The translations under genes and the position numbers were made by a program. Source: a candidate division FCPU426 bacterium (GTDB lineage Bacteria > Oederibacteriota > JAJYGY01 > DAIDJD01). Taken from it: DNA of 33,187 bases. Positions 1,851 through 18,550 of this stretch are shown here, in pieces (positions within the stretch are counted from its first letter, which is position 1; each line of letters begins with the position of its first letter). The notes under the pieces were generated by a model that saw nothing but the letters and a program-made list of their open reading frames with translations, did not search any database and had not been told where the DNA came from. Where the stretch lies: contig DAIDJD010000078.1 in assembly GCA_027451505.1 (NCBI GenBank), positions 1-33,187 of the forward strand. Reading direction: 5' to 3'.

Positions 1851-2482
1851 AACGGACCCGGCGGATCTTCGCGATCCTGGCGCGCGCCTACCCCGATGCC
1901 CGCTGCGAACTCGACCACCGCGGCCCCTTCCAGCTCCTGGCCGCGACCATCCTTTCGGCGCAGTGCACCGACCGCAACGTCAACCGGGCGACCCCGGCCC
2001 TGTTCCGGCGTTGGCCCGACGCCGCCGCGCTGGCCCGCGCCCGGCCCGCGGAGGTCGAGCGAGCCATACGCACCCTGGGCCTTTTCCGCACCAAGGCCCG
2101 CAATCTGGTGGGGATGGCCCAGGCCCTGGTGCGGGAGCACGGGGGGCGGGTCCCGGACACGATGGAGGCCTTGGTCCGGCTCCCGGGGGTGGGGCGCAAG
2201 ACCGCCAACGTGGTCCTGAGCGAGGCCTTCGGCGTCCCCGGCCTGGCGGTGGATACCCACGTCCTCAGGGTGGGAAAGCGCCTGGGGCTGTTTCAGGCCG
2301 GAGACCCGGTGGGCGTGGAACGGGAGCTGTGCGCCCAACTGCCTCCGGCGCAGTGGGGGCGGGCCTCCCACCTTTTGATCTGGCACGGAAGGCGGGTTTG
2401 CGAGGCTCGCTTACCCCGGTGCGGGGAATGCGCGCTGCGGCGGGATTGCCCCTCGGCCCGGGAGGACGGGGGCGCTTCTTAG
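1847..2482 (+). CDS. nth: Endonuclease III (DNA glycosylase/AP lyase)
   Basis: This 211-residue protein is the usual length for Nth, which excises oxidised pyrimidines and cleaves the resulting abasic site in base-excision repair. The helix-hairpin-helix reads LPGVGRKTANVV (112-123) with catalytic Lys118. The catalytic Asp136 is in VDTHV. The [4Fe-4S] ligands are Cys185, Cys192, Cys195 and Cys201 in exact C-x6-C-x2-C-x5-C spacing. I chose the GTG at 1847 because it overlaps the upstream stop as GTGA and starts right before the conserved N-terminal region; the open frame reaches further upstream only as a shadow of the preceding gene. No terminator with a T-run is visible after the stop. Confidence 0.95.
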   Translation: MKRTRRIFAILARAYPDARCELDHRGPFQLLAATILSAQCTDRNVNRATPALFRRWPDAAALARARPAEVERAIRTLGLFRTKARNLVGMAQALVREHGGRVPDTMEALVRLPGVGRKTANVVLSEAFGVPGLAVDTHVLRVGKRLGLFQAGDPVGVERELCAQLPPAQWGRASHLLIWHGRRVCEARLPRCGECALRRDCPSAREDGGAS

Positions 2483-2518
2483 GGTCCGGCCCGCGACCTT
2501 TTCCCGGTCGGAACGGGC

Positions 2519-2546
2519 TTGTCCGGCGCCTCCGGCGGGGTATGAT
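2519..2546 (+). promoter_or_regulatory. Possible promoter upstream of polC
   Basis: A TTGTCC element (2519-2524; 4/6 match to -35) lies 16 bp upstream of TATGAT (2541-2546; 5/6 match to -10). Transcription would start near 2553 and give polC a leader of about 93 nt. It sits in the 163-bp gap after nth, the only AT-richer patch there. The support is sequence similarity only. Confidence 0.45.
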
Positions 2547-2645
2547 GTTTGTTCCCCATTTCCCCCATCCGGTGTCCGGCTTGGCTCCCCTAGCCCCTTC
2601 CTCCCCCGTCCCCAGATCCGCGCGGACCGTCCCGCGCCAACGGCC

Positions 2646-5600
2646 ATGATTTCGCTTGGCTGGAAGGCCGGCGGTGGCTGGCTGGAGCGGCTCGAACTGC
2701 CCCCCGATGTGGCGGCGGCCTTCGTCGGCGCCGAATGGGAGGAGGTGCGGGTCTGGCCGGAGGGCCCGTCGCTGCGTCTGACCTTGGCCCTGGCCTCGCC
2801 GCCGGGCGAGGTGCGTCCCTATGAGGGGCTGAGGGAACGTTTGAAGGGCCACGGATTCCGCGAGATCGAGCTCCGGATCCGGTACCGCGACCCGATTCCG
2901 GCGGGGGAATACCTGGCCCTCCATTTCGACGACATGTGCCTGGCCCTGGGCCGGGAACTCGGCCTGGACGCGCATTGGACCGGCGGCCTGGACTACCGCC
3001 TGGAGGGCGAGGACAGCGAAAGGGTCTGCCTCCAGGCGGCGGGCTCCCTGGCCCTCCGGGCGCTCATGGAGCGCAAGGCCGAAGCCCATTTTCTGGAGCG
3101 GCTGGCTTGGGGCTGCGGTGCGCGCCCCGAGGTGCGCCTCGATCCCGTCCCCGGCCCCCTGGGATCCGTCGAGGAGCGGCCCGCTCCGGAAGCCCCCGCC
3201 CCGGTCCCGGGCAAGGAGGGGGCCCGGCGCCCGGCGGCGTCCGGGAAGGACGCCCCCCCCGCCGCGGGGAAGACCGCCGCGGAAGCGGCCGCCGAAACGG
3301 TCCTGGTGGGACGGACCATCCCGGCCAAGGCCGTCCGGCCCATCTCGGAACTCAACGCCCCCGCCGACGAAGCGGCCCTCCAGGGGCGCATCTTCGACGT
3401 CCGTTCCAGCCTGCTCAAGAGCGGGGGCACGCTCCTGAAGCTTTCGGTCACCGACGGGACCGATTCCCTTTTGTGCACCCTGCGCGTCCCCGAGGGCAAG
3501 TCCGCCCCCGCCGCGCTGAAGCCCGGCGCCCTTTGCCGCCTGCGCGGCCGCCTCGAGATCAACCGCTTCGAGGGCGACGAGTTGGCGATGCAGGTGTCCC
3601 ACGCCGTGGCCCTCCCGGCCCTGCCGGGGAGGCGCGACGACGCCCCGGTCAAGCGGGTGGAACTGCACGCCCACACCAAGATGTCGGCCCTGGACGCCGT
3701 CACCCCGGTCGAGGCCTATGTGGCCCGGGCCATCGAATGGGGGCATCCCGCCGTGGGGATCAGCGACCACGGGGTGGTCCACTCCTTCCCCGAGGCCCAC
3801 AAGGCGGCCAAGGGGCGCATCAAGCTGCTGCTGGGGATGGAGGCCTACCTGGTCCCGGACGTCGATTTCGTGGACCAACTGAGGCAGGCCAAGGAGGGGC
3901 GCCGGTCCCGCGACGAGGTTCGGATCCCGGAGTATTGGCACTGCATGCTCTACGCCGCCACCGACGAGGGGCGCCGGCACCTCTACGAACTGGTGAGCCA
4001 CAGCCACACGCGGAGCTTCTACCGCAAACCGCTGATCTCGAAGGCGCTGCTCGCGTCCAAGCGCGCCGGGCTCCTGGTCGGCAGCGCCTGCGAGCAGGGA
4101 GAGCTCTACCAAGCCGTGGTCGCGGGGGCCGGGGACGCCGACCTGGAGCGCATCGCCTCGTTCTACGACTACCTGGAGGTTCAGCCGGTCGAGAACAACG
4201 CCTTCATGGTGCGCAAGGGTACCGCCACCGAGGAGGGCCTCCGCGACAACGTGAGGCGCATCGTGGCCCTCGGACTGAAGCTGTCCAAGCCCGTGGTGGC
4301 GACCTCCGACCTCCACTTCCTGGACCCCGAGGACGCCCTGCACCGGGGCATCCTCCAGGCCGGCCAGGGCTACGCCGACGCCGACCTCCAGCCGCCGCTC
4401 TATTTCCGGACCACCGGCGAGATGCTCGAGGCCATGGGGTTCCTGGGGCCCGAGCTCGCCCACAAGGTGGTCGTGGAGGACCCCAACCGCGTGGCGGCGT
4501 TGTGCCAGTCGGTACCCCCCGTCCCGGAGGGGCGTTTTTTCCCCACCCTTCCGGGGGCCGATGAGGACATCCGCGCGGCCGCCTACGCGCGGGCGGGCGA
4601 ACTCTACGGCGAGCCCCTGCCCGGACTCGTGGCGGCGCGCCTGGAGCGGGAGCTTGGGGCCATCATCGGCAACCGCTTCGCGGTCCTGTACGAGATCTCC
4701 CGGCGCCTCGTGCGCGCGTCGCAGGAGCGGGGCTACTCGGTGGGGAGCCGGGGTTCGGTGGGGTCCAGCTTCGTGGCCTTCTGCCTCGGCATCACCGAGG
4801 TCAACCCGTTGCCCAGCCACGAACTCTGCCCGGCGTGCCGTTTCGTGGCCTTCCGCGAGGGGGAGCGCCTCGTCGGGGTGGACCTGCCGGATCGCCCCTG
4901 CCCGAACTGCGGGGGCCCTCTCCGACGCGACGGGTTCAACATCCCCTTCGAGACCTTCGTCGGCTTCAAGGGCGACAAGGTCCCGGACATCGACCTGAAC
5001 TTCGCCCCGGAGGTGCAGGGGGAGATCCAGAAGTACGCGGAGACCCTCTTCGGGAAGGGCTTGGCGTTCAAGGCCGGCACCATTTCGACCCTCGCCGAGC
5101 GCCAGAGCTTCGGGATGGTGAAAAAGTACTTCGAGGCCCGCTCGATCGTGAAACGCCGGGTCGAGATCGAGCGGCTCAAGGCCGGATTGGAGGGCGTCAA
5201 GCTCACCAGCGGACAGCACCCGGGCGGGGTCGTTCTGGTCCCGGAGGGCGTGGACATCAATTCCATCACGCCGGTCCAGTATTCCGGGGACAAGAACGAG
5301 CTGGGCGGGTCGGAAAAGGCGGGTGAGGAGACCCTGCTGACCACCCACTTCGACTACCACGCCTACGACGAGGCGCTGGTGAAGCTCGACATCCTGGGCA
5401 AGGACGACGCCTCGGCCTTCAGGCACCTCCAGGAGCTGACCGGGGTCGCCGAGACCACGGTCCCGCTCGACGACCCCGCGGCGCTGTCGCTGTTCTCCAG
5501 CGACCGGGCCTTGGGCCTGGGCACCGCGTCGCGCGAGGAGCACGACTGGCTGGGGGACACCGGGGTCGTCTCGATCCCCGAGTTCGGCACGGCCAACACG

Positions 5601-6467
5601 CGGCGCATGCTCGAGCTCACCCGCCCGCGCAATTTCACGGAGCTCATCTACATCTCGGGCCTGAGCCACGGCACCGGCGTCTGGGCGGGGAACGCGGAGA
5701 GGCTGATCAAGGAGAAGGTGGCCACCCTCGCCACGGTGATCTCCACGCGCGACGACATCATGAACCGGCTCATCGGCCAGGGCATGGACGCGGTGACGGC
5801 CTATGACATCACCGAGAAGATCCGCAAGGGGGCGGTGGCCCGGGAGGGGTTCAAGCCGGCGCACCAGGAAGCCCTGGCCGCGGCCCGGCTCCCGCAGTGG
5901 TGGATCGAATCCTGCGGCAAGATCCAGTACATGTTCCCCAAGGCCCATGCGGCCGCCTACTGCCTCACGGCCGTGCGCATGGCCTACTTCAAGGTCCACC
6001 ACCCCGCGGCCTACTACAGCGCCTGGCTGACGCTGCACGCGGCGGCGGCGGAGGCCGACACCCTGCGGGGCGGGCGCGCCGCGGTGATCGCGCGGATGCG
6101 CCAGCTCAAAGCCCTTTCCGAGGCCCGCCAGGCCACCCCCAAGGACGAGGCCGTGCTGGGCGTCCTGGTGGTCGTCCTTGAGGCGATCCTGCGCGGCGCC
6201 ACCTTCGCCGCGGTGGACCTCTACCGCAGCCATCCGTGGCGGTTCACGCCCCTGGGCGGGATGGAGATCCTGCCGCCCCTGGTGTCGCTTCCGGGGCTCG
6301 GCGGGACGGCCGCCACCCGCATCGAGTCCGAGCGGGCCCAGGGCCCCTTCAGCAGCGTCGAGGACCTCGTCCGCCGCTGCGGCTTGAACAAGACCGTCGT
6401 CGAGAAGCTGGACGCGGGCGGGGCCCTGGCGGGGCTCCCGCGCAGCGACCAGGGGGAGCTGTTTTGA
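2646..6467 (+). CDS. polC: DNA polymerase III alpha subunit, PolC type, lacking the exonuclease insertion
   Basis: This 1273-residue replicative polymerase is clearly PolC rather than DnaE. It has an N-terminal domain (1-170), a Pro/Ala-rich linker, an OB fold (about 230-322), a PHP domain (338-560: HAHTKMS at 341, SDHG at 373, SDLHFLD at 554), SRGSVGSS (701-708), a CPAC...CPNC zinc ribbon (728-755), and catalytic Asp781 and Asp783 in PDIDLNF with Asp915 in KLDILGKDD. PolC normally carries a DEDD 3'-5' exonuclease inside the PHP domain. Here only about 25 residues (404-428) join the two PHP halves, and the protein is about 160 residues shorter than Bacillus PolC. Proofreading would have to come from a separate DnaQ-like protein. 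The start is the ATG at 2646; no ribosome binding site precedes it. The stop overlaps the next gene's TTG. Confidence 0.95.
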   Translation: MISLGWKAGGGWLERLELPPDVAAAFVGAEWEEVRVWPEGPSLRLTLALASPPGEVRPYEGLRERLKGHGFREIELRIRYRDPIPAGEYLALHFDDMCLALGRELGLDAHWTGGLDYRLEGEDSERVCLQAAGSLALRALMERKAEAHFLERLAWGCGARPEVRLDPVPGPLGSVEERPAPEAPAPVPGKEGARRPAASGKDAPPAAGKTAAEAAAETVLVGRTIPAKAVRPISELNAPADEAALQGRIFDVRSSLLKSGGTLLKLSVTDGTDSLLCTLRVPEGKSAPAALKPGALCRLRGRLEINRFEGDELAMQVSHAVALPALPGRRDDAPVKRVELHAHTKMSALDAVTPVEAYVARAIEWGHPAVGISDHGVVHSFPEAHKAAKGRIKLLLGMEAYLVPDVDFVDQLRQAKEGRRSRDEVRIPEYWHCMLYAATDEGRRHLYELVSHSHTRSFYRKPLISKALLASKRAGLLVGSACEQGELYQAVVAGAGDADLERIASFYDYLEVQPVENNAFMVRKGTATEEGLRDNVRRIVALGLKLSKPVVATSDLHFLDPEDALHRGILQAGQGYADADLQPPLYFRTTGEMLEAMGFLGPELAHKVVVEDPNRVAALCQSVPPVPEGRFFPTLPGADEDIRAAAYARAGELYGEPLPGLVAARLERELGAIIGNRFAVLYEISRRLVRASQERGYSVGSRGSVGSSFVAFCLGITEVNPLPSHELCPACRFVAFREGERLVGVDLPDRPCPNCGGPLRRDGFNIPFETFVGFKGDKVPDIDLNFAPEVQGEIQKYAETLFGKGLAFKAGTISTLAERQSFGMVKKYFEARSIVKRRVEIERLKAGLEGVKLTSGQHPGGVVLVPEGVDINSITPVQYSGDKNELGGSEKAGEETLLTTHFDYHAYDEALVKLDILGKDDASAFRHLQELTGVAETTVPLDDPAALSLFSSDRALGLGTASREEHDWLGDTGVVSIPEFGTANTRRMLELTRPRNFTELIYISGLSHGTGVWAGNAERLIKEKVATLATVISTRDDIMNRLIGQGMDAVTAYDITEKIRKGAVAREGFKPAHQEALAAARLPQWWIESCGKIQYMFPKAHAAAYCLTAVRMAYFKVHHPAAYYSAWLTLHAAAAEADTLRGGRAAVIARMRQLKALSEARQATPKDEAVLGVLVVVLEAILRGATFAAVDLYRSHPWRFTPLGGMEILPPLVSLPGLGGTAATRIESERAQGPFSSVEDLVRRCGLNKTVVEKLDAGGALAGLPRSDQGELF

Positions 6468-8518: not shown

Positions 8519-8889
8519 GCCTCATCAACCTGACGGCCTACGGATACGCGGGCTTCTTCTTCCTGGCTGGCATCGCCTTCGTCGTGGGGGGGCTGGCGGC
8601 GGCGTGGGTCCTGCGCCCGAGCAACCCCAACCCGACCAAGCTCGACAACTACGAGTGCGGCGAGGTCCCCATCGGTTCGGCCTGGGTGCAGTTCCACGTG
8701 GGCTACTACCTCATCGCGCTGGTCTTCGTCCTCTTCGAGGTCGAGGTGGCCTTCCTTTTCCCCTTCGCCGGGGCCTTCCGCCTGTGGGCCGATCCCTGGG
8801 GCCCCATGGCGGCGGCGGGCGTTTTCATCGGGATCCTGGCCCTGGCGGATGCCTGGGCCTGGCGCAAGGGGGCGCTGGAATGGCTCTGA
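8515..8889 (+). CDS. nuoA: NADH-quinone oxidoreductase subunit A
   Basis: This 124-residue membrane subunit of complex I has three transmembrane helices. The conserved loop around Cys48 ([13 protein letters not shown]) and the acidic helix [15 protein letters not shown] with Glu75 and Glu77 are diagnostic. It helps form the quinone-site/E-channel region with NuoH, NuoJ and NuoK. The start is a TTG overlapping the preceding stop as TTGA, with GAGGG just upstream. Its 3' end overlaps nuoB by 10 nt. Confidence 0.93.
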
Positions 8890-9440
8890 GCCCCCTCCAG
8901 AAGGCGGCCGGGGTCCTGTCCGCCGCGCCGGGCGGGCAGTTCGTGCTGCTCAACGCCGAGGCCCTGTTCAACTGGTCCCGGGCCAACAGCCTGTTCCCGC
9001 TCACCTTCGGCCTTTCCTGCTGCGCCATCGAGTTCATGGCCGCGGGTATGTCGCGCTACGACATGGCCCGTTTCGGCGCCGAGGTGGCCCGGGCCACCCC
9101 GCGCCAGGCGGACCTGATGATCGTCGCCGGCACGGTCACCGAGAAGATGGCCCCGGTCGTGCGTACCCTTTACGACCAGATGCCCGACCCGAAGTACGTG
9201 ATCAGCATGGGGGCCTGCGCCACGGCGGGCGGACCCTTCTACTACGACAACTATTCGGTGCTGAAGGGGGTCGACCAAGTGGTGCCCGTGGACGTCTACG
9301 TGCCGGGCTGCCCACCCCGGCCCGAGGCCCTCATCTACGGCATCCTCAAGCTCCAGCAGAAGATCATGCGCGAGCACCCCATCCTGGGCCCGCGGCTGAA
9401 GGCCCAGGCCGAGGCCCGCGCCGTCGGGGGGGGCGCCTGA
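8880..9440 (+). CDS. nuoB: NADH-quinone oxidoreductase subunit B (N2 cluster)
   Basis: This 186-residue peripheral subunit carries the terminal [4Fe-4S] cluster N2, which passes electrons to quinone. The four ligands are the tandem Cys47-Cys48 in LSCCAIEF, Cys113 in GACATAGG and Cys144 in PGCPPRPEA, all in the family positions. The ATG at 8880 lies 10 nt inside nuoA, with AAGGGGG about 8 nt upstream. nuoC follows after 2 nt. Confidence 0.95.
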
Positions 9441-9442
9441 CC

Positions 9443-9907
9443 GTGGAGCGCGCGGAACTGCTCGCGGCGGTCGTGGCCGCCTGCCCCACCGCCGCGGTCG
9501 ACGCGGCGCCCCAACTCCCCGAGGCCAAGGTCCCCCGGGAGGCCTTCCGGCCCCTCATGGAACGGCTCAAGGCCGATCCCGCCCTGGCCTTCGACTACCC
9601 GATGTCCATGACCGCCGTCGACTGGCCCGAGGCCGGGGCCATCACCTGCGTCTACCACCTCGCCAGCATGGCCCATGGGCACAAGATCGTGGTGAAGTGC
9701 GACGCCGACCGGGCCCGCCCCGAGGTGCCCACGGTCTCGGACCTTTGGCGTGGCTGCGAGTGGTTCGAGCGCGAAGTCTACGACCTCTTCGGGGTCGTCT
9801 TCACGGACCACCCCGACCTGCGACGCATCATGCTCACCGACGACTGGGTGGGCTACCCCCTGCGCAAGGACTACCGCGACTCACGCATCGCCGGGAAGCC
9901 CTACTGA
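9443..9907 (+). CDS. nuoC: NADH-quinone oxidoreductase subunit C
   Basis: This 154-residue 30-kDa-type subunit supports NuoB and NuoD in the quinone-reducing Q module. The signature WFEREVYDLFGVVFTDHPDL (107-126) is nearly canonical and is followed by RRIMLTDDW...PLRKDY. The GTG at 9443 starts just after the nuoB stop. It is a separate gene rather than a nuoCD fusion; nuoD begins 2 nt after its stop. Confidence 0.94.
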   Translation: MERAELLAAVVAACPTAAVDAAPQLPEAKVPREAFRPLMERLKADPALAFDYPMSMTAVDWPEAGAITCVYHLASMAHGHKIVVKCDADRARPEVPTVSDLWRGCEWFEREVYDLFGVVFTDHPDLRRIMLTDDWVGYPLRKDYRDSRIAGKPY

Positions 9908-9909
9908 CC

Positions 9910-11046
9910 ATGGACTCCCCCGCACCCAACCGCGCGCCCCAGGCCAAGGACGCCCTCAAGACCGAGGAGTACTTCATCAACATGGGGCCCCAGCACCCCT
10001 CGACCCACGGGGTGCTGCGCCTGGTGATGCGCCTCGACGGGGAGACCGTGCTCCAGGTGGTCCCGCACCTGGGCTACATCCACCGTTCCATCGAGCGCAT
10101 GTGCGAATGGGACGTCTACCCCCAGTTGGTGCACTTCACCGACCGCATGGACTACCTTTCGGCCATGTCCACCAACTGGGCCTATGTCCAGGTCGTGGAG
10201 AAGGCCCTGGGCTTGGTGGTCCCCGAGCGGGCCGAATACATCCGGGTGATGGTGGCGGAGCTCAACCGCCTGTCCAGCCACGCCATGTGGTTCGGGGCCT
10301 ACTGCATGGACCTGGGGGCGGCCTCGGCCTTCTTCTACGGCTTCCGCGAGCGCGAACTGGTGGTGGACCTCTTCGAGACCCTCTGCGGCCAGCGCCTCAC
10401 CTACAACTACATGCGCATCGGCGGGGTCTCCAAGGACCTCACCGAGGACTTCGCGCCCCGGGTGCGCGACATCTGCGAGACGTTCAAGCGGGCCGTGGAC
10501 GAGTACGAGCGGCTGGTCAGCGGGAATGTCATCTTCCGTCAGCGCACCGAGGGCATCGGGATCCTTTCGCCCGAAAAGGCCGTGGGCTACGGGTGCGGCG
10601 GGCCGGTGCTGCGGGGTTCGGGGGTCCGGTACGACCTGCGCAAGGACGACCCCTACAGCGTCTATCCGCGCCTGAAGTTCGACGTCCCCGTGGGCTCCCG
10701 CGGCGACTGCTTCGACCGCTACCGGGTGCGCCTGGAGGAGATGCGCCAGAGCGTCCGCATCCTGGAGCAGGCCCTCGAGCAGTTGCCCGGGGGGGCCTGG
10801 ATGGCCGACGTCAAGGCCGTGCGCCCGGCCAAGGGCGAGTACTACGCGCGCCTGGAGACCGCCCGCGGCGACATGGGCGTCTACTTCGTCAGCCAGGGCG
10901 GCACCAAGCCCTACCGCATGAAATTCCGCACCGCCTGCTTCAGCAACCTGTCCTGTTTGCCCGAGATCAGCGTCGGCTGGAAGATCGCCGACGTGGTCTC
11001 CATCCTGGGCAGCTTGGACGTGGTCATCCCCGACATCGACCGGTGA
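9910..11046 (+). CDS. nuoD: NADH-quinone oxidoreductase subunit D
   Basis: This 378-residue 49-kDa-type subunit lines the quinone pocket with NuoB. The conserved N-terminal NMGPQHPSTHGVLRL includes the His loop that contacts quinone, and LGYIHRSIERM and DRMDYLS follow. The C-terminus ends in DVVIPDIDR, as typical. It descends from the [NiFe]-hydrogenase large subunit; the hydrogenase Ni-binding Cys pairs are absent, so a hydrogenase reading is excluded. The ATG at 9910 is 2 nt after the nuoC stop. Confidence 0.95.
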   Translation: MDSPAPNRAPQAKDALKTEEYFINMGPQHPSTHGVLRLVMRLDGETVLQVVPHLGYIHRSIERMCEWDVYPQLVHFTDRMDYLSAMSTNWAYVQVVEKALGLVVPERAEYIRVMVAELNRLSSHAMWFGAYCMDLGAASAFFYGFRERELVVDLFETLCGQRLTYNYMRIGGVSKDLTEDFAPRVRDICETFKRAVDEYERLVSGNVIFRQRTEGIGILSPEKAVGYGCGGPVLRGSGVRYDLRKDDPYSVYPRLKFDVPVGSRGDCFDRYRVRLEEMRQSVRILEQALEQLPGGAWMADVKAVRPAKGEYYARLETARGDMGVYFVSQGGTKPYRMKFRTACFSNLSCLPEISVGWKIADVVSILGSLDVVIPDIDR

Positions 11047-11050
11047 CGCC

Positions 11051-12187
11051 GTGACCCCCGCGCCCCTTCCCCTGGTCCCGCCCCCGGCCTTCCGGCTGGG
11101 CGCCTTCCTCTGGAAGCTCGTCCTGACCCCCGGCGCGGCCCTTTCCGGCACCGTGGCCCCGGCGCTGCGCGCGGCCTTGGGGCCCCACCTGCCGCCGGCC
11201 GGGGTCGAGGCCGTGCTGGCGCTGCTGTGCTTCGTGGCCATGTCCGGTTTCGTCACGGTGACGGCGCTGGTGTTGACCCTGGCCGAGCGCAAGGTGGCGG
11301 CGTTCTTCCAGAACCGCAAGGGCCCCAATCGGGTCGGCCCCTGGGGCCTGCTGCAGCCCATCGCCGATGTGGTCAAGCTCCTGCAGAAGGAGGACACCGT
11401 GCCGCGGGCGGCCGACCGGCCCGTGTTCCTTCTGGCGCCCTTCATGGCCATGGCGGCCACCTACATGGTCCTGGCCGTCCTGCCCTTCGATCGGGGCCTG
11501 GCGGTCACGGATCTCGACCTGGGCGTGCTCTACATCACGGCCGTCTCCGGGCTCGGCGTCCTGAGCATCCTGATGGCGGGCTGGGCCAGCGCCAACAAGT
11601 ACTCGCTGCTGGGCGGGCTGCGCAGCGCCGCCCAGATCGTCAGCTACGAGTTGAGCCCGGCCCTGGTGGTCCTCAGCGTGGTGCTGTTCTCGGGCACCCT
11701 CAGCGTCCAGGGCATCGTGGAGCGCCAGGCCGCGGGGTGGAACCTGTGGGCCATGGGCCCCATGGGCGTGGTGGGAATGCTCATCTACCTCACGGCGGGC
11801 ACGGCCGAGATCAACCGCGCGCCCTTCGACCTACCCGAGGCGGAAAGCGAGCTCACGGCGGGCTACCACACCGAATACAGCGGCATGCGCTTCAGCATGT
11901 TCCAACTCGCCGAGTTCATGAACATGTTCGTGGTGGCGGCGTTGACGGCGACCCTGTTCCTGGGCGGCTGGCAGCCGCTGGGGCCCCTGGCCGCGCTGCA
12001 CATCCCCGGGTACCTCTGGTTCTTCGGCAAGTCGGGCGCGATGGTGTTCGTGATCATGTGGTTCCGCTGGACCTTCCCGCGGGTGCGCGTGGACCAGCTC
12101 ATGACCCTGGAATGGAAGATCCTGCTGCCCCTCTCGTTCCTCAACCTCATCGGCGTGGCCCTGTGGACCGCGCTGGGGATGAAGTAG
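11051..12187 (+). CDS. nuoH: NADH-quinone oxidoreductase subunit H
   Basis: This 378-residue membrane subunit links the Q module to the proton-pumping arm and has about eight transmembrane helices. Key segments are AERKVAAFFQNRKGPNRVGP (78-97), the DVVKLLQKED loop, and NRAPFDLPEAESELTAGYHT, whose acidic residues form the E-channel entry. The N-terminus carries about 50 residues before the first diagnostic helix, longer than many homologues; the GTG at 11051 is 4 nt after the nuoD stop and no better internal start is evident. Confidence 0.94.
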   Translation: MTPAPLPLVPPPAFRLGAFLWKLVLTPGAALSGTVAPALRAALGPHLPPAGVEAVLALLCFVAMSGFVTVTALVLTLAERKVAAFFQNRKGPNRVGPWGLLQPIADVVKLLQKEDTVPRAADRPVFLLAPFMAMAATYMVLAVLPFDRGLAVTDLDLGVLYITAVSGLGVLSILMAGWASANKYSLLGGLRSAAQIVSYELSPALVVLSVVLFSGTLSVQGIVERQAAGWNLWAMGPMGVVGMLIYLTAGTAEINRAPFDLPEAESELTAGYHTEYSGMRFSMFQLAEFMNMFVVAALTATLFLGGWQPLGPLAALHIPGYLWFFGKSGAMVFVIMWFRWTFPRVRVDQLMTLEWKILLPLSFLNLIGVALWTALGMK

Positions 12188-12188
12188 C

Positions 12189-12656
12189 ATGGGACCTCTG
12201 CGCTGGATCGCCGGGATTCTCCTGGGGGCCTGGAGCCTGCTCAAGGGCATGGGCGTGACGATCCGCGAATTCTTCTCGCGGGACGTGACCCAGCAGTACC
12301 CCAACGAACGCTGGCGCGTGGCCGACCGCTTCCGCGGCCGCGTGGACCTGCCGCTGGATCCGGTGAGCGGATCCCACAAGTGCACCCTGTGCATGCTCTG
12401 CGTCCGGGCCTGCCCCAACGGCAGCCTCGAGATCGTCGCGGGAAAGGGAACCGACGGGCGCACCCGGGTGCTGGAGAAATACATCTACAAGCTCGGCACC
12501 TGCACCCTCTGCGAACTGTGCGTGGAGGCCTGCAACTTCGACGCGATCCGCATGAACCACGACTACGAGCTGTCCACGTACGACCGCCAGTCCCTGACGC
12601 TCGTCCTGAACGAGCCCGCGCGGTCCGCGGGCCCTGGCGCGGCGGGGCGGCCGTGA
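12189..12656 (+). CDS. nuoI: NADH-quinone oxidoreductase subunit I (two 4Fe-4S clusters)
   Basis: This 155-residue ferredoxin-like subunit binds clusters N6a and N6b that relay electrons to N2. The ligands are Cys65, Cys68, Cys71 and Cys75 (CTLCMLCVRACP) and Cys105, Cys108, Cys111 and Cys115 (CTLCELCVEACN). The second motif has Asn where the last Cys is usually followed by Pro. An N-terminal amphipathic helix precedes the clusters. The ATG is 1 nt after nuoH; the stop overlaps the nuoJ GTG as GTGA. Confidence 0.95.
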   Translation: MGPLRWIAGILLGAWSLLKGMGVTIREFFSRDVTQQYPNERWRVADRFRGRVDLPLDPVSGSHKCTLCMLCVRACPNGSLEIVAGKGTDGRTRVLEKYIYKLGTCTLCELCVEACNFDAIRMNHDYELSTYDRQSLTLVLNEPARSAGPGAAGRP

Positions 12657-13177
12657 CGCTGCCGGCCCTGGTCTTCTACGCCTGCGCCCTGGGCGCGCTG
12701 GTGTGCGCGCTCCTGGTCGTCAGCAGCCGCAACGTCTTCCACAGCGCCCTGTTCCTGGCCGGGGCCCTGGCCAGCTTGGCCGTGGTCTACCTGCTCCTGG
12801 ACGCCGAGTTCCTGGCCGTGGTCCAGTTGCTCATCTACGTCGGGGCCGTGATCGTGCTGGTGATCTTCGCGGTGATGCTCACGGCCAAGGTGGGCCTGTC
12901 CGCGGCCCCGCAGACCAACCGACTGGCCCTGCCCGCCGGCGTGGGCGCCGCGGGCCTGCTGGTGGTCCTCCAGCGCTGGCTTCTGGCCACGCCCTGGGCC
13001 CAAGCCCAGGCCTCCGCGGCGGCGGACCGGGACCCCCTCGCGGCGGGGTCGCCGAACCTGCAGGCCTTGGGCCTTTCGTTGTTCACCCGCTACGTCTTCC
13101 CCCTCGAGATCACGGCCCTCATCCTCTTCGCCGCGCTGGTGGGCGCCGTGCTCATCGCCCGAAAGGACCGGCCATGA
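12653..13177 (+). CDS. nuoJ: NADH-quinone oxidoreductase subunit J
   Basis: This 174-residue membrane subunit has five transmembrane helices. The third-helix region with FLAVVQLLIYVGAVIVLVIFAVML is the family signature, including the helix that changes conformation during turnover. The C-terminal helix ends in GAVLIARKDRP. The GTG start overlaps the nuoI stop and the stop overlaps the nuoK ATG (ATGA), so translation is coupled on both sides. Confidence 0.93.
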   Translation: MTLPALVFYACALGALVCALLVVSSRNVFHSALFLAGALASLAVVYLLLDAEFLAVVQLLIYVGAVIVLVIFAVMLTAKVGLSAAPQTNRLALPAGVGAAGLLVVLQRWLLATPWAQAQASAAADRDPLAAGSPNLQALGLSLFTRYVFPLEITALILFAALVGAVLIARKDRP

Positions 13178-13491
13178 TCCCCGGAATCTCGCTGGGCCAG
13201 GTGTTGGCCCTTTCGGCGGCGCTTTTTTGCGTGGGCCTCTACGGCGTGGTCACCCGGCGCAACGCGGTGGGGGTCCTGATGGGGCTTGAGCTGATGTTCA
13301 ACGCCGCCAACCTGAATTTCGTGGCCTTCAACGGGTACCTCCACCCCCTGGCCCTCACCGGGCAGACCTACGTCGTGTTCACCATCACCATCGCCGCGGC
13401 CGAGGCCACGGTCGGTCTGGCCCTGGTGGTGAGCATGTTCCGGGCGCGCCGCAGCGTGCTGCTGGAGCACGCCGACCTGCTCAAGGGCTGA
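13174..13491 (+). CDS. nuoK: NADH-quinone oxidoreductase subunit K
   Basis: This 105-residue MrpC-like subunit has three transmembrane helices. The two intramembrane glutamates needed for proton transfer are Glu39 (LMGLELMFNAANLNFVAF) and Glu77 (TIAAAEATVGLAL). Length and motifs are canonical. The start overlaps the nuoJ stop as ATGA; nuoL starts 18 nt downstream with its own AAGG. Confidence 0.95.
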   Translation: MIPGISLGQVLALSAALFCVGLYGVVTRRNAVGVLMGLELMFNAANLNFVAFNGYLHPLALTGQTYVVFTITIAAAEATVGLALVVSMFRARRSVLLEHADLLKG

Positions 13492-13509
13492 GCCCACCCA
13501 AGGTCCTCC

Positions 13510-15573
13510 ATGCCACTGTCGCCCGCCGTCTTCCTCATCCCCCTGCTGCCCTTCGCCGGCTTCGCGGCCAATTTCCTGTTCCTGCGCAGGAGCCGGCGCG
13601 GCGCGCCCCTGGTGGCGCTCGCCGCCGTGGGCCTCTCCCTGGTCCTGAGCCTGTGGATCGCGGCCGGGGTCCTGGCCTCCCCCGCGGCGCGGACGCTGCA
13701 GACGCCCTGGCTCGCCGTTTCGGGGCCGCTCCCCGGGGGCTTCGCCATCTCCGTGGGCGCCCTGGTGGACCCCCTGTCGGCCCTGCTGCTGGTGGTGGTG
13801 ACCCTGGTGTCGTTCCTGGTGCACCTATACAGCCTGGGCTACATGCGCGAGGATCCGGGCCTGCCGCGCTTCTTCCTCTACCTGGGCCTGTTCACCTTCA
13901 GCATGCTGGGCCTGGTGCTCAGCCCCAATTTCTTCCAGATGTACATCTTCTGGGAGTTGGTGGGCCTGTGTTCCTACCTGCTCATCGGCTTCTACGTCGA
14001 CAAGCCCGAGGCCAACCAGGCCGCCAAAAAGGCCTTCGTGGTGAACCGGGTGGGCGACTTCGGGTTCTTCCTGGGCATCGTCGCCCTCACCGCCTATCTC
14101 GGAACCGCCGACTTCGCGCACGTGCCCGCGATGGTGGGGCGCTGGCCCCTCTACGGCCCGGCCTGGCTTCCGCTGGGCGCCGTGGCCCTGCTCCTGTTCG
14201 GGGGGGCCGTGGGCAAGAGCGCGCAGTTCCCCTTGCACGTCTGGCTTCCCGACGCCATGGAGGGGCCCACGCCGGTCTCGGCGCTCATCCACGCGGCCAC
14301 CATGGTCGCGGCGGGCGTCTTCCTGGTGGCGCGGGCCTACAGCGTGTTCGACGCCGCCCTGATGGGCAGCGTCGACGCGCCCCTGGTGGTGGCCTGGATC
14401 GGTGGCTTCACGAGCATCTTCGCGGCCACGATCGCCTGCACCCAGCATGACATCAAGCGGGTGCTGGCCTATTCCACCCTTTCCCAACTCGGCTACATGG
14501 TCCTGGCCCTGGGGGCGGGCGGCCTGGGCGTGACCGCCGGCGTGTTCCACCTCTTCACCCACGCCTTCTTCAAGGCCCTCCTGTTCCTGGGGGCGGGTTC
14601 GGTCATCCACGCGGTCCACAGCAACGACCTGCGCGCCATGGGGGGGCTGCGCCGCCGCATGCCGGTGACCGGGATTACCTTCCTGGTGGCCTGCCTGGCC
14701 ATCTCCGCGATCCCTCCCTTCGCCGGGTTCTTCAGCAAGGACATGATCCTGGACGCGCTGCGCCAAGCCCACCTGACGGCGCTCTACACGGTGGCTGCGG
14801 GGGTCTCGTTCCTGACGGCGTTCTACATCTTCCGGCTCTACTTCCTGGCCTTCGAGGGCGAGCCCGCCCCGGCCGATGGCCACGGGGGCCACGGGGCGGC
14901 CCACGCCCACGAGTCGCCCGGCACCATGACCGCGCCGCTCCTGGTCCTGGGGCTGCTCAGCTGCGTGGCGGGCTTCGCCGGTCTGTCCTGGGGCGGGAAG
15001 AGCTTCGGCTCCTACATCCGGTTCGACCGCCCCGCGTCCCTGGCCGCGGATTGGACCCGCGCCACCGCGCTGGCCTCCGCCCATCCGGACGCCCGCGGGC
15101 ACCTGGCCCTGGCCGACGCCCTCTGGGCCGGGCCGGAGTCCGCGGAACCCGCCGCGGCCCCGCCCGCCCCTGAGCCTTCCCGTGCCTTCACCTTGGACCT
15201 CTCCGTGAGCATCCCTGCGACCCTGCTGGGCTTGGCGGGCCTGTTCCTCGCCTACGCGGTCTACCGCCGTCGCTGGCTGCCGGCCGAGCGCCTGGCCGCG
15301 GCCTTCGGGCCGGTGCACACGCTCGTCCAGCGCAAGTACTACGTCTACGAGGCCTATCGCTGGGCGCTGGACCACCTCTACTACGTCCTTTCGGCGGGCA
15401 TCGCCTGGTTCGACCGGCACGTGGTCGACGGGTTCATGAACGCACTGGCCTGGGCCTCCCAGGCCGGGGGGGCCGGGGCCCGTCGCCTCCAGACGGGCCG
15501 CGTCCAGGCCTACGCCCTGGCCATGCTGGCGGGGCTGCTGTTGCTGCTGGCTTCGCTCAAGGTGCTGCTGTGA
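13510..15573 (+). CDS. nuoL: NADH-quinone oxidoreductase subunit L (antiporter-like)
   Basis: This 687-residue distal antiporter-like subunit pumps protons and carries the lateral C-terminal helix. Conserved residues include Glu149 in FWELVGLCSYLLIGF, Lys236 in GKSAQFPLHVWLPDAMEG, the TQHDIKRVLAYSTLSQLGYM helix, HAFFKALLFL with Lys355, and Lys410 in GFFSKD. Between the core helices and the lateral region there is a His/Gly-rich loop (about 455-468). The ATG at 13510 follows AAGG by 7 nt. The stop overlaps the nuoM GTG. Confidence 0.95.
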   Translation: MPLSPAVFLIPLLPFAGFAANFLFLRRSRRGAPLVALAAVGLSLVLSLWIAAGVLASPAARTLQTPWLAVSGPLPGGFAISVGALVDPLSALLLVVVTLVSFLVHLYSLGYMREDPGLPRFFLYLGLFTFSMLGLVLSPNFFQMYIFWELVGLCSYLLIGFYVDKPEANQAAKKAFVVNRVGDFGFFLGIVALTAYLGTADFAHVPAMVGRWPLYGPAWLPLGAVALLLFGGAVGKSAQFPLHVWLPDAMEGPTPVSALIHAATMVAAGVFLVARAYSVFDAALMGSVDAPLVVAWIGGFTSIFAATIACTQHDIKRVLAYSTLSQLGYMVLALGAGGLGVTAGVFHLFTHAFFKALLFLGAGSVIHAVHSNDLRAMGGLRRRMPVTGITFLVACLAISAIPPFAGFFSKDMILDALRQAHLTALYTVAAGVSFLTAFYIFRLYFLAFEGEPAPADGHGGHGAAHAHESPGTMTAPLLVLGLLSCVAGFAGLSWGGKSFGSYIRFDRPASLAADWTRATALASAHPDARGHLALADALWAGPESAEPAAAPPAPEPSRAFTLDLSVSIPATLLGLAGLFLAYAVYRRRWLPAERLAAAFGPVHTLVQRKYYVYEAYRWALDHLYYVLSAGIAWFDRHVVDGFMNALAWASQAGGAGARRLQTGRVQAYALAMLAGLLLLLASLKVLL

Positions 15574-17087
15574 GCGCGGCCTTGGCGGGGTTCCCCATCC
15601 TCTCGGCCATTTGGCTGGCCCCGTTTTTGGCCGGCATCGCCCTGATGTTCGCGCCCGCGTCCTGGACCCGGGCGCCCCGCATGGTGGCCCTGGCCGCCTC
15701 GGCGGTGTCGCTGGCGCTGACCGTGGCCCTGCTGTTCGCCTTCGACTACCGAGCCGCGGGCGCGCTCCAGTTCCAGGAGCGGTGGACCTGGATCGCGGAT
15801 TTGGGGGTGGAATACCGCCTGGGGGTCGACGGCATCAGCCTGCTGATGGTGGCCCTCAACGCCGCCATCCTCTTCTCCGGCGTGCTGGCGAGCTGGGGCC
15901 TCCGCGAGCGGTCCAAGGAGTTCTTCGTGCTGCTCCTGCTGCTCGGCGGCGGCGTCTTCGGGGTCTTCACCGCGTTCAACCTGTACCTCTTTTTCGCGCT
16001 CTACGAGATCGCGGTGCTGCCGATGTACCTGCTCATCGGGGTTTGGGGGACCGGCCCGAAGGAGTACTCCGCCATGAAGCTGACGCTGATGCTGATGGGC
16101 GGATCGGCCTTCCTGCTGCTGGGGATCCTGGCGCTGTATTTCGGCTCCACCCCGCATTCCCTCGACATCCCGACGCTGCAGCGGGCCGCGGCCTCGGGCC
16201 AGTTCGGGATCGCCTTCCAGCGGCTCTGGTTTCCCGTGCTCTTCCTGGGCTTCGCGGTGCTGGCGGCCCTGTGGCCCTTCCACACCTGGTCGCCGGACGG
16301 CCACGCCTCGGCCCCCACGGCCGTGTCCATGCTGCACGCGGGCGTGCTGATGAAGCTGGGCGCCTATGGCTGCCTGCGCGTGGCCATCGGACTCCTGCCC
16401 CAGGGGGCCCACCTGTGGGCGCCCGCCGTGGCCGCGTTGGCGCTGGTCAACGTGGTCTACGGATCCATCGGCGCCGCGTCCCAGACCGACCTCAAGTACG
16501 TCACCGCGTACTCCTCGGTGTCGCACATGGGGATGGTCCTCCTGGGCCTGGCGACCCTGGGCACCCTGGGGCTCTCCGGCGCCGTGCTCCAGATGTTCGC
16601 CCACGGGCTCATGACCGGCGTCTTCTTCGCCCTCATCGGACTGACCTACGGGCGCACCCACACCCGCCACCTGCCGTCGTTGGGTGGGCTGGCGCGGGTG
16701 ATGCCCTTCGTCGCCGCGGCCTACGTCGTCGCGGGCATGGCTGGCCTGGGCCTCCCGGGGCTGAGCAGCTTCCCGGCCGAGCTGCTGGTCTTCCTGGGCG
16801 CCTTCCTGCACGGCGGCCTGTTCTTCCGGGTGGTGGGTGTGGCCGCCGTGTCGAGCATCGTGTTCACCGCGCTCTACGTGCTGCGGGTCCTGCAGAAGGC
16901 CTTCTACGGCCCGATCACCGAGCCCAAGTATCTGGAGCTCAAGGACGCCACCTTCGTCGAGCGCGTGCCGGTGGTGTTCCTTTTGTCGATCATGGTCGTG
17001 GTGGGGCTGTGGCCCTTTCCCGTGCTGAGGCTGATCGACGGGGCCCTGGCCCCGCTGGTCCAGGCGCTGGGGGGACTGCCGCGATGA
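15570..17087 (+). CDS. nuoM: NADH-quinone oxidoreductase subunit M (antiporter-like)
   Basis: This 505-residue antiporter-like proton-pumping subunit has about 14 transmembrane helices. Signatures are the Glu in FALYEIAVLPMYLLIGVWG, WPFHTWSPDGHASAPTAVSM followed by LHAGVLMKLGAYG, LKYVTAYSSVSHMGMV, and SSFPAELLVFLG near the C-terminus. The GTG overlaps the nuoL stop as GTGA; the stop overlaps the nuoN ATG as ATGA. Confidence 0.95.
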   Translation: MSAALAGFPILSAIWLAPFLAGIALMFAPASWTRAPRMVALAASAVSLALTVALLFAFDYRAAGALQFQERWTWIADLGVEYRLGVDGISLLMVALNAAILFSGVLASWGLRERSKEFFVLLLLLGGGVFGVFTAFNLYLFFALYEIAVLPMYLLIGVWGTGPKEYSAMKLTLMLMGGSAFLLLGILALYFGSTPHSLDIPTLQRAAASGQFGIAFQRLWFPVLFLGFAVLAALWPFHTWSPDGHASAPTAVSMLHAGVLMKLGAYGCLRVAIGLLPQGAHLWAPAVAALALVNVVYGSIGAASQTDLKYVTAYSSVSHMGMVLLGLATLGTLGLSGAVLQMFAHGLMTGVFFALIGLTYGRTHTRHLPSLGGLARVMPFVAAAYVVAGMAGLGLPGLSSFPAELLVFLGAFLHGGLFFRVVGVAAVSSIVFTALYVLRVLQKAFYGPITEPKYLELKDATFVERVPVVFLLSIMVVVGLWPFPVLRLIDGALAPLVQALGGLPR

Positions 17088-18550
17088 ACCTGGCGCTGCC
17101 GCTGCCGGAATACGGGGTCCTCGGACTGGCCCTGGTGGTGCTGCTCTACGATCTGGTCGTCCCGGAGCGCGTCTCGCGGCGGGCGCTGGGGTGGGTCTGC
17201 GCCCTGGGGTTCGCCGGGGTGCTGGCGCTCCTTCTGCGCTCCGACGCCCCGCAAGTGGCTCCGGTGCCGACCGCCTTCGGGGGCATGTACGTGGCCGACG
17301 GGCTGGCCTTGGCCTTCAAGACGCTCATCGTGGCCGCGGCGATGCTGGCCTCCCTGGCCAGCCTGGATTACCTGGAGGCCCGTGGGGTGCGCTGGCAGGG
17401 CGAGTACTACCTGCTGCTGACCCTGGTGACCTTCGCCCTGATGTGCCTCGTCTCGGCCGGCGACCTGCTCACGCTCTACGTGGCCCTGGAGCTCAACAGC
17501 ATCGGCTTCTACGCCCTGGTGGCGGTCCTCAAGGGGCGCAGCCTCACCAGCTCCGAGGCCGGGCTGAAGTACCTCATCCTGGGGGCCCTTTCCTCGGCCC
17601 TGCTGCTGTACGGGATCTCCCTGCTCTACGGCCTCAGCGGCACGGTCTCCCTCGCCGGCCTGGCCGCGTGGGCCGCGGGCGCGGCCCGCAGCCCGGCGCT
17701 GGTGGTCGCTCTGGCCCTCGTGGCCGCGGGACTGGCCTTCAAGATGTCGCTGGTGCCCTTCCATATGTGGGCGCCCGACGTCTACCAGGCCGCCCCCACC
17801 CCGGTGACGGCCTTCCTCAGCGTGGCCGGGAAGACGGCCGCTCTGGCCCTGCTGGTGCGGGTCCTGGACGCGGCCCTGGGGGGCTTCATCGGGGTCTGGG
17901 ACAAGCTCTTGATGGTGCTGATGGCCGCGACCTTCGTGTGGGCCAACCTGGGCGCCCTCAAACAGCGCGACGCCAAGCGGCTCATGGCCTATAGCTCCGT
18001 GGCCCAGGCCGGCTACCTGGCCATCGGCGTGGCCGCCGGTTCGGCGCTGGGGCTGCAGGCGGCGCTCTTCTACGCGCTGGTCTACGTCTTCACCAACGTG
18101 GCCGCCTTCCAGGTGCTCCAGCTCGTGGCCGAATCCGGCGGGCCGGAGCTCTCCGGACTGCGCGGCCTGGGGCGGCGTTCCCCGGGGCTGGCCCTCATCC
18201 TGGCCGCGGCGGTTCTGTCCCTGGCCGGGATCCCGCCCTTCGGGGGCTTTTTCGGCAAGTTCTACCTGTTCGCGGCGGGCGTACGGGAGGGTATCGTGGC
18301 GGGGCGGTCCTGGCTGCTGGCCCTGGTGGGGTTGGCCGTGGTGATGAGCATCGTGTCGTTGTTCTACTACCTCATCCTGGTGAAACAAATGTACATCGAG
18401 CCCGCCGACCCGGAGGCGCCGGGAACCGGGGGGCCGGTCGCGGTCCCGTTGGGCGCGCGGCTGGTGCTGGGGGTGTGCGCCGCCATGATTCTGTGGACCG
18501 GATTGTATCCATCGCCCATACTGGCCTGGATCCGGCAGGCGCTCTTCTAG
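17084..18550 (+). CDS. nuoN: NADH-quinone oxidoreductase subunit N (antiporter-like)
   Basis: This 488-residue third antiporter-like subunit sits next to NuoK. Diagnostic segments are LYVALELNSIGFYALVAVLK, FKMSLVPFHMWAPDVYQAAP, VAGKTAALALLVRVL, and AKRLMAYSSVAQAGYLAIGV. It is the last nuo gene; nuoE, nuoF and nuoG (the NADH-oxidising module) are not in the operon, so the complex is of the 11-subunit type or borrows an input module coded elsewhere. A GC hairpin and T-run directly follow the stop. Confidence 0.95.
   Translation: MNLALPLPEYGVLGLALVVLLYDLVVPERVSRRALGWVCALGFAGVLALLLRSDAPQVAPVPTAFGGMYVADGLALAFKTLIVAAAMLASLASLDYLEARGVRWQGEYYLLLTLVTFALMCLVSAGDLLTLYVALELNSIGFYALVAVLKGRSLTSSEAGLKYLILGALSSALLLYGISLLYGLSGTVSLAGLAAWAAGAARSPALVVALALVAAGLAFKMSLVPFHMWAPDVYQAAPTPVTAFLSVAGKTAALALLVRVLDAALGGFIGVWDKLLMVLMAATFVWANLGALKQRDAKRLMAYSSVAQAGYLAIGVAAGSALGLQAALFYALVYVFTNVAAFQVLQLVAESGGPELSGLRGLGRRSPGLALILAAAVLSLAGIPPFGGFFGKFYLFAAGVREGIVAGRSWLLALVGLAVVMSIVSLFYYLILVKQMYIEPADPEAPGTGGPVAVPLGARLVLGVCAAMILWTGLYPSPILAWIRQALF

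Follow-up and report, generated by a model that had tools for sequence, protein, structure and literature searches.

An exonuclease-less PolC with a complete PHP metal site in a candidate division FCPU426 bacterium

PolC is usually described as a polymerase with a built-in DEDD exonuclease (Exo). The polC gene of a candidate division FCPU426 bacterium, located in a stretch of 33,187 nucleotides (hereafter the window; contig DAIDJD010000078.1 of assembly GCA_027451505.1), raises the question of whether this domain is truly missing from its product, how such a form arose, and what would proofread in its place. An earlier note on this DNA had proposed a PolC without its built-in exonuclease, by domain loss or as an ancestral form, with a separate subunit or a proofreading-capable PHP domain as a substitute.

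Architecture of the window PolC

The window protein (P0001; Table 1) matches the NCBIfam models NF001688 (1163 bits; cut-off 873) and TIGR01405 (1053.6 bits; cut-off 1043.45), and its residues 241-1273 align by phmmer as one block (E=2e-269) to 3f2b, the G. kaustophilus PolC chain, in whose alignment the PHP halves are not split by the Exo. Pfam recognizes PHP (339-505, E=3e-28), polymerase (DNA_pol3_alpha), finger, and HhH domains. The OB fold (240-323), for which the Pfam tRNA_anti-codon match (E=9e-5) falls under its gathering score, lies N-terminal to PHP (339), as is the case for PolC. In the AF2 model, which covers residues 1-640 with a mean pLDDT of 82 and has the PolC chains 3f2b/3f2c/9qpc as its best PDB matches, alpha/beta elements that appear PolC NTD-like precede the OB fold and are followed by a disordered linker (171-213). 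The palm Asp triad (D781, D783, and D915, the last with its codon at 5388-5390) is kept, as in all 105 aligned PolCs; together with CPAC...CPNC and the nine PHP ligands, it bears out the claim that polymerase, PHP, and zinc ribbon are intact and not decayed. The gene encodes an Exo-less PolC that is probably functional. The QxxLF clamp consensus also applies to PolC. Quoted for PolY (PMC12926913), this consensus is fitted by the C-terminal QGELF of the window protein. A 1322-aa open frame lies antisense to polC (2265-6233, - strand) and is probably an effect of the 72% G+C. Elsewhere, the window encodes a protein matching FlgD_ig and C-terminal sorting domains of the Por_Secre_tail/CHU_C type (3-1376) and a series of complex I (nuo) subunits, namely B, C, D, H, I, K, and L plus further antiporter-like ones (8604-18550), after which come genes for ResB, cytochrome c assembly, and the biosynthesis of haem; an Rfam search of the whole window gave no match.

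Table 1. Features of the window polC gene and its product
Feature	Window coordinates	Strand	Evidence
polC, Exo-less PolC-type DNA polymerase III alpha subunit, 1273 aa	2646..6467 (coding 2646-6464)	+	NCBIfam, PDB 3f2b
N-terminal region, residues 1-170, PolC NTD-like alpha/beta, without Pfam match	2646..3155	+	AF2 model
OB fold, residues about 240-323	3363..3614	+	Pfam tRNA_anti-codon 245-318; AF2 beta strands 240-323
PHP domain, residues about 336-557	3651..4316	+	Pfam PHP; ligand alignment
Exo insertion site, residues 406-430	3861..3935	+	Alignment, Exo profile, AF2
Polymerase core (palm/thumb) and zinc ribbon CPAC...CPNC	4569..5399	+	Pfam DNA_pol3_alpha
C-terminal beta-clamp binding motif QGELF	6450..6464	+	Sequence

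The DEDDh exonuclease that normally splits the PHP domain is missing from the window PolC by Pfam, alignment, Exo profile, and AF2 model, as the earlier note had claimed. The gap between the two PHP strands measures 25 residues, against about 205 in Exo-bearing PolCs, and holds a short loop with one predicted helix (408-416) between GMEAYLVPD (397-405) and EYWHCMLYA (429-437); the latter motif had been placed correctly, the former (GMEAYLVPDV, actually 397-406) one residue too far on, at 398-407. Over a shared alignment interval, P0001 has 21 residues, other Exo-less PolCs 1-73 (medians 6), and Exo-bearing PolCs about 187-206, a group that included one sequence (L081) later identified as a dead relic. 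Pfam finds no RNase_T domain in the window PolC; when PolCs are searched without any filter by a profile built from 29 PolC Exo domains, P0001 is absent from the best matches listed, and significance is reached by the L081 relic alone; and the AF2 model of residues 1-640 contains no exonuclease-sized domain between or beside the N-terminal region, OB, and PHP. These three lines rule out an Exo hidden elsewhere in the protein, a fold that the earlier note had named as fatal to its own reading, and the profile finds no trace of a decayed Exo in the loop. D-x-E triplets exist at residues 123, 499, and 560, none of them in an exonuclease context. Because a canonical PolC has a DEDDh Exo inserted in PHP and this protein does not, it is an Exo-less variant, with an uninterrupted PHP and a DnaE1 encoded in the same genome, and not the canonical form. 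The assembly is MAG-like (252 contigs, 89.6% complete), but a deletion or misjoined contig as the source of the absence is extremely improbable, because the identical junction and Exo-less architecture recur in independent assemblies, both in G001 of the same order (63% identity to the window PolC) and in all assessable relatives across the phylum.

Distribution and origin of the Exo-less form

Our sample of the window's phylum, which is diderm by Omp85 (Negativicutes are diderm, too), comprised 45 genomes from 16 families, 34 with PolC and 11 without. The Exo is missing from 33 of 33 assessable PolCs (30 alignment rows plus G027, G039, and G043, read from single-block matches; G013, a fragment without the site, was left out), and the PolCs of the phylum form one clade (FastTree 99, IQ-TREE 96), apart from the clostridial ones. 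The clostridial phylum, that of a Parasporobacterium MAG (class Clostridia), is larger than the 150 genomes sampled evenly from it; 109 of their PolCs had the site covered, of which about 67 (about 60%) are Exo-less, 1 has a dead Exo, and 41 have an Exo, the classes being set by match blocks and frame length, with G129 moved to Exo-less and G199 to dead Exo after reading of the loop. Among PolCs surveyed earlier, 6% were Exo-less, from Clostridia and Negativicutes apart from one additional copy in Thermotogae, and among systems that combine PolC with DnaE1 the share was 16% (Timinskas et al. 2013, PMC3919608). The architecture itself is thus already known, and the reservation in the earlier note that the form might be common and already classified was partly justified, since it is common and has been described since 2013. 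What is new is that Exo-less PolC is the rule in what appears to be a second phylum and accounts for about 60% of the PolCs of an even clostridial draw; also new are the contrast in PHP ligand completeness, the RNase_T-free genomes, and the clostridial trio of intact, dead, and vanished Exo. Phage-labelled records (OR846608.1, OR848252.1, and others) hold PolC matches at 40-46% identity and are possibly bacterial chromosome fragments.

In the PolC trees, for which the clostridial Exo-less rows were chosen from higher-scoring matches and not randomly, well-supported branches require at least 5-6 changes of the Exo label. Within a related clostridial trio, L084 has an intact Exo (DEDHD), L081 a relic (aligned to about 405-431 of P0001) with AAGGE for DEDHD at the catalytic positions and no RNase_T match, and L051 no Exo, with PHP intact in all; the trio captures loss under way and is a clear, recent example of it. 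Distances between Exo domains correlate with those between backbones (Mantel r=0.79, 0/2000 permutations), so the Exo is mostly passed on with the polymerase and has long been travelling with PolC. Multiple independent gains of Exo from free DnaQs are not supported, as the starred branches do not force them and the Exo follows the backbone. The Exo tree, built from short sequences, is poorly resolved, with long branches given by the partial rows L132-L143, and the DnaE-rooted PolC tree has a very long DnaE-PolC branch and an unresolved base. It is conceivable that the PolC of the window's phylum is primitive and never had an Exo, rather than having lost it, given that all 33 assessable PolCs lack it, form one clade, and show no relic in the loop; we lean against this origin, because the agreement of distances has the Exo long with PolC and the passage from L084 through L081 to L051 shows loss under way. 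As to the alternatives of domain loss or ancestral form, Clostridia show repeated change with one clear recent loss, while in the window's own phylum either may apply.

The PHP metal site and other candidate proofreaders

PHP metal-ligand completeness, which the earlier note had asked to be checked, is nine of nine in the window PolC: H341, H343, D350, H375, E399, H432, C482, D555, and H557 (HHDHEHCDH). The pattern HHDHEH[C/H]DH has been called active in a 2026 survey (PMC12926913). All 81 assessable PolCs that have no working Exo (including L081; L043, cut before the first ligands, was left out) possess the full nonet, versus 21 of 29 Exo-bearing ones (Fisher p=1e-5, uncorrected for the relatedness of rows and with exceptions that may represent as few as three events). 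The eight incomplete nonets consist of six D555N replacements, including Bacillus and Enterococcus, plus those of Fusobacterium and Mesomycoplasma, and the DEDDh site is complete in 29 of 29 Exo-bearing PolCs; every PolC so compared therefore keeps at least one intact proofreading site. In M. tuberculosis DnaE1, proofreading is carried out by the exonuclease activity of a PHP site with the same nonet; the groove to this site is lined there by a PHP loop (29 residues in M. tuberculosis, 18 in Taq, and 9 in E. coli), and it is in this loop that PolC carries its Exo (PMC5636811). With a complete nonet, an Exo-less PolC is thus arranged much like DnaE1, and the uninterrupted loop of the window PolC is about the size of that in DnaE1 enzymes with a proofreading PHP. 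The G. kaustophilus PolC, with one PHP ligand mutated, is without PHP exonuclease activity (PMC5636811), and no biochemical result on an Exo-less PolC was found in the literature. By analogy with M. tuberculosis DnaE1, we put at about 0.7 the probability that the PHP domain of the window PolC proofreads, with the caveat that complete PHP ligands do not prove nuclease activity; the PHP substitute suggested in the earlier note is likely in view of the nine ligands present. The window PolC most likely works alongside DnaE1: after addition of a wrong base, the primer end would shift to the PHP metal site of PolC and be cut there, and the PHP site of DnaE1 would likewise cut DnaE1's own mispaired products. 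In this scheme, the nuclease activity, the metals bound, and the way in which PolC and DnaE1 share the work are inferred.

The search of the genome for dnaQ and dnaE that had been called for yielded a DnaE1 (G000:C162) with a complete PHP nonet, a DnaE2-type polymerase, and one small DEDDh protein (G000:C30:7849-8301), the single RNase_T protein of the genome (59.6 bits); MutS is present, and the genome has no match to the PolA-type exonuclease (PF01612). This DnaQ-like protein could proofread in trans as a bound partner of PolC or DnaE1, in the manner of E. coli epsilon. It keeps the motifs DxE, HNxxFD, and HxAxxD, and its best NCBIfam match is the Pol III epsilon model PRK06195, but the score of 119.9 bits is far under the cut-off of 373, the TIGR00573 dnaQ cut-off is not reached either, and the match to PolC Exo is weak (77 bits). 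Moreover, RNase_T matches are missing from 17 of the phylum's 34 PolC genomes, among them G001 (76% complete) and seven that are at least 94% complete, although strongly divergent members may escape a profile search and many of the genomes have gaps; we thus consider proofreading in trans unlikely. It is similarly improbable that PolC is a non-proofreading accessory polymerase, with DnaE1 and its PHP site as the main replicase, a possibility raised for PolC + DnaE1 systems by Timinskas 2013 (PMC3919608). A complete DnaE1 and the absence of PolC from 11 of 45 genomes of the phylum would fit such a role, but across the PolC-bearing part of the phylum both the polymerase and its nine PHP ligands have been retained, and clamp motif and palm Asp triad are undamaged; an unused site should degenerate, and it has done so in the PolCs of Fusobacterium and Mesomycoplasma. 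Proofreading by the PHP domain of PolC itself remains our preferred reading.

Across the wider sample, about half of the PolC-bearing relatives in the phylum have some RNase_T protein, a strong DnaQ occurs in 9 of the 11 PolC-less genomes, and an RNase_T-family exonuclease is undetected in about 20 of 67 clostridial Exo-less genomes; a DnaQ-like protein of family f8 is recognized by Pfam but hardly by the PolC Exo profile. The free DnaQs of the PolC-less families f4 and f12 (L121-L128, L130) score 170-220 bits to this profile, versus 77 for the small DEDDh protein of the window genome, and may either lie close to the origin of PolC's Exo or descend from it. The DnaE2-type error-prone polymerase (G000:C179; L158:947-4249, - strand; NF004225, 1141 bits, cut-off 939) is possibly a contamination, because its contig is short (6.3 kb); similar weak matches occur in G001, G008, G013, G029, and G033. 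DnaE2 is found almost only in DnaE1-only species (PMC12926913). In G012, whose Exo-less PolC has a complete PHP site and which also encodes an 89-bit DnaQ-like protein, the PHP ligands of the DnaE (L162) are altered (HHEKEHCDH).

Comparison with known systems and implications

With the canonical PolC of Bacillus, Staphylococcus, and G. kaustophilus (3f2b; 38% identity over 418 structurally aligned columns), the window PolC shares the polymerase core, zinc ribbon, OB fold, and C-terminal clamp motif, but it has no DEDDh Exo in the PHP loop and keeps Asp555, which is Asn in Bacilli. The Exo-less PolCs of Clostridia and Negativicutes (PMC3919608) have the same order of NTD, OB, uninterrupted PHP, Pol3, and HhH and the same pairing with DnaE1, whereas here the form belongs to a small diderm phylum, apparently outside the groups named there, is fixed in all its assessable PolCs, and occurs with a third, DnaE2-type polymerase. 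The DnaE1 enzymes of M. tuberculosis and Thermus with a PHP exonuclease (PMC5636811) have the same complete nine-ligand site and an uninterrupted loop of similar length but follow the DnaE domain order, with a C-terminal OB, and their PHP activity was shown, whereas that of the window PolC is predicted.

On a broader reading, which we judge evenly balanced, the whole phylum and the majority of sampled clostridial PolC bearers would replicate with PHP as the only built-in proofreader of PolC; as many of these genomes are without any DnaQ-family exonuclease, Exo and PHP would be interchangeable proofreaders in PolC, one of which is always kept. Bacteria across wide parts of their diversity do without the Exo, and wherever it is lacking, the PHP metal site has all its ligands, so that PHP proofreading in PolC becomes directly testable. 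Because PHP inactivation sensitises mycobacteria to nucleotide analogues (PMC5636811), this may also be of relevance to replication inhibitors and nucleotide analogues.
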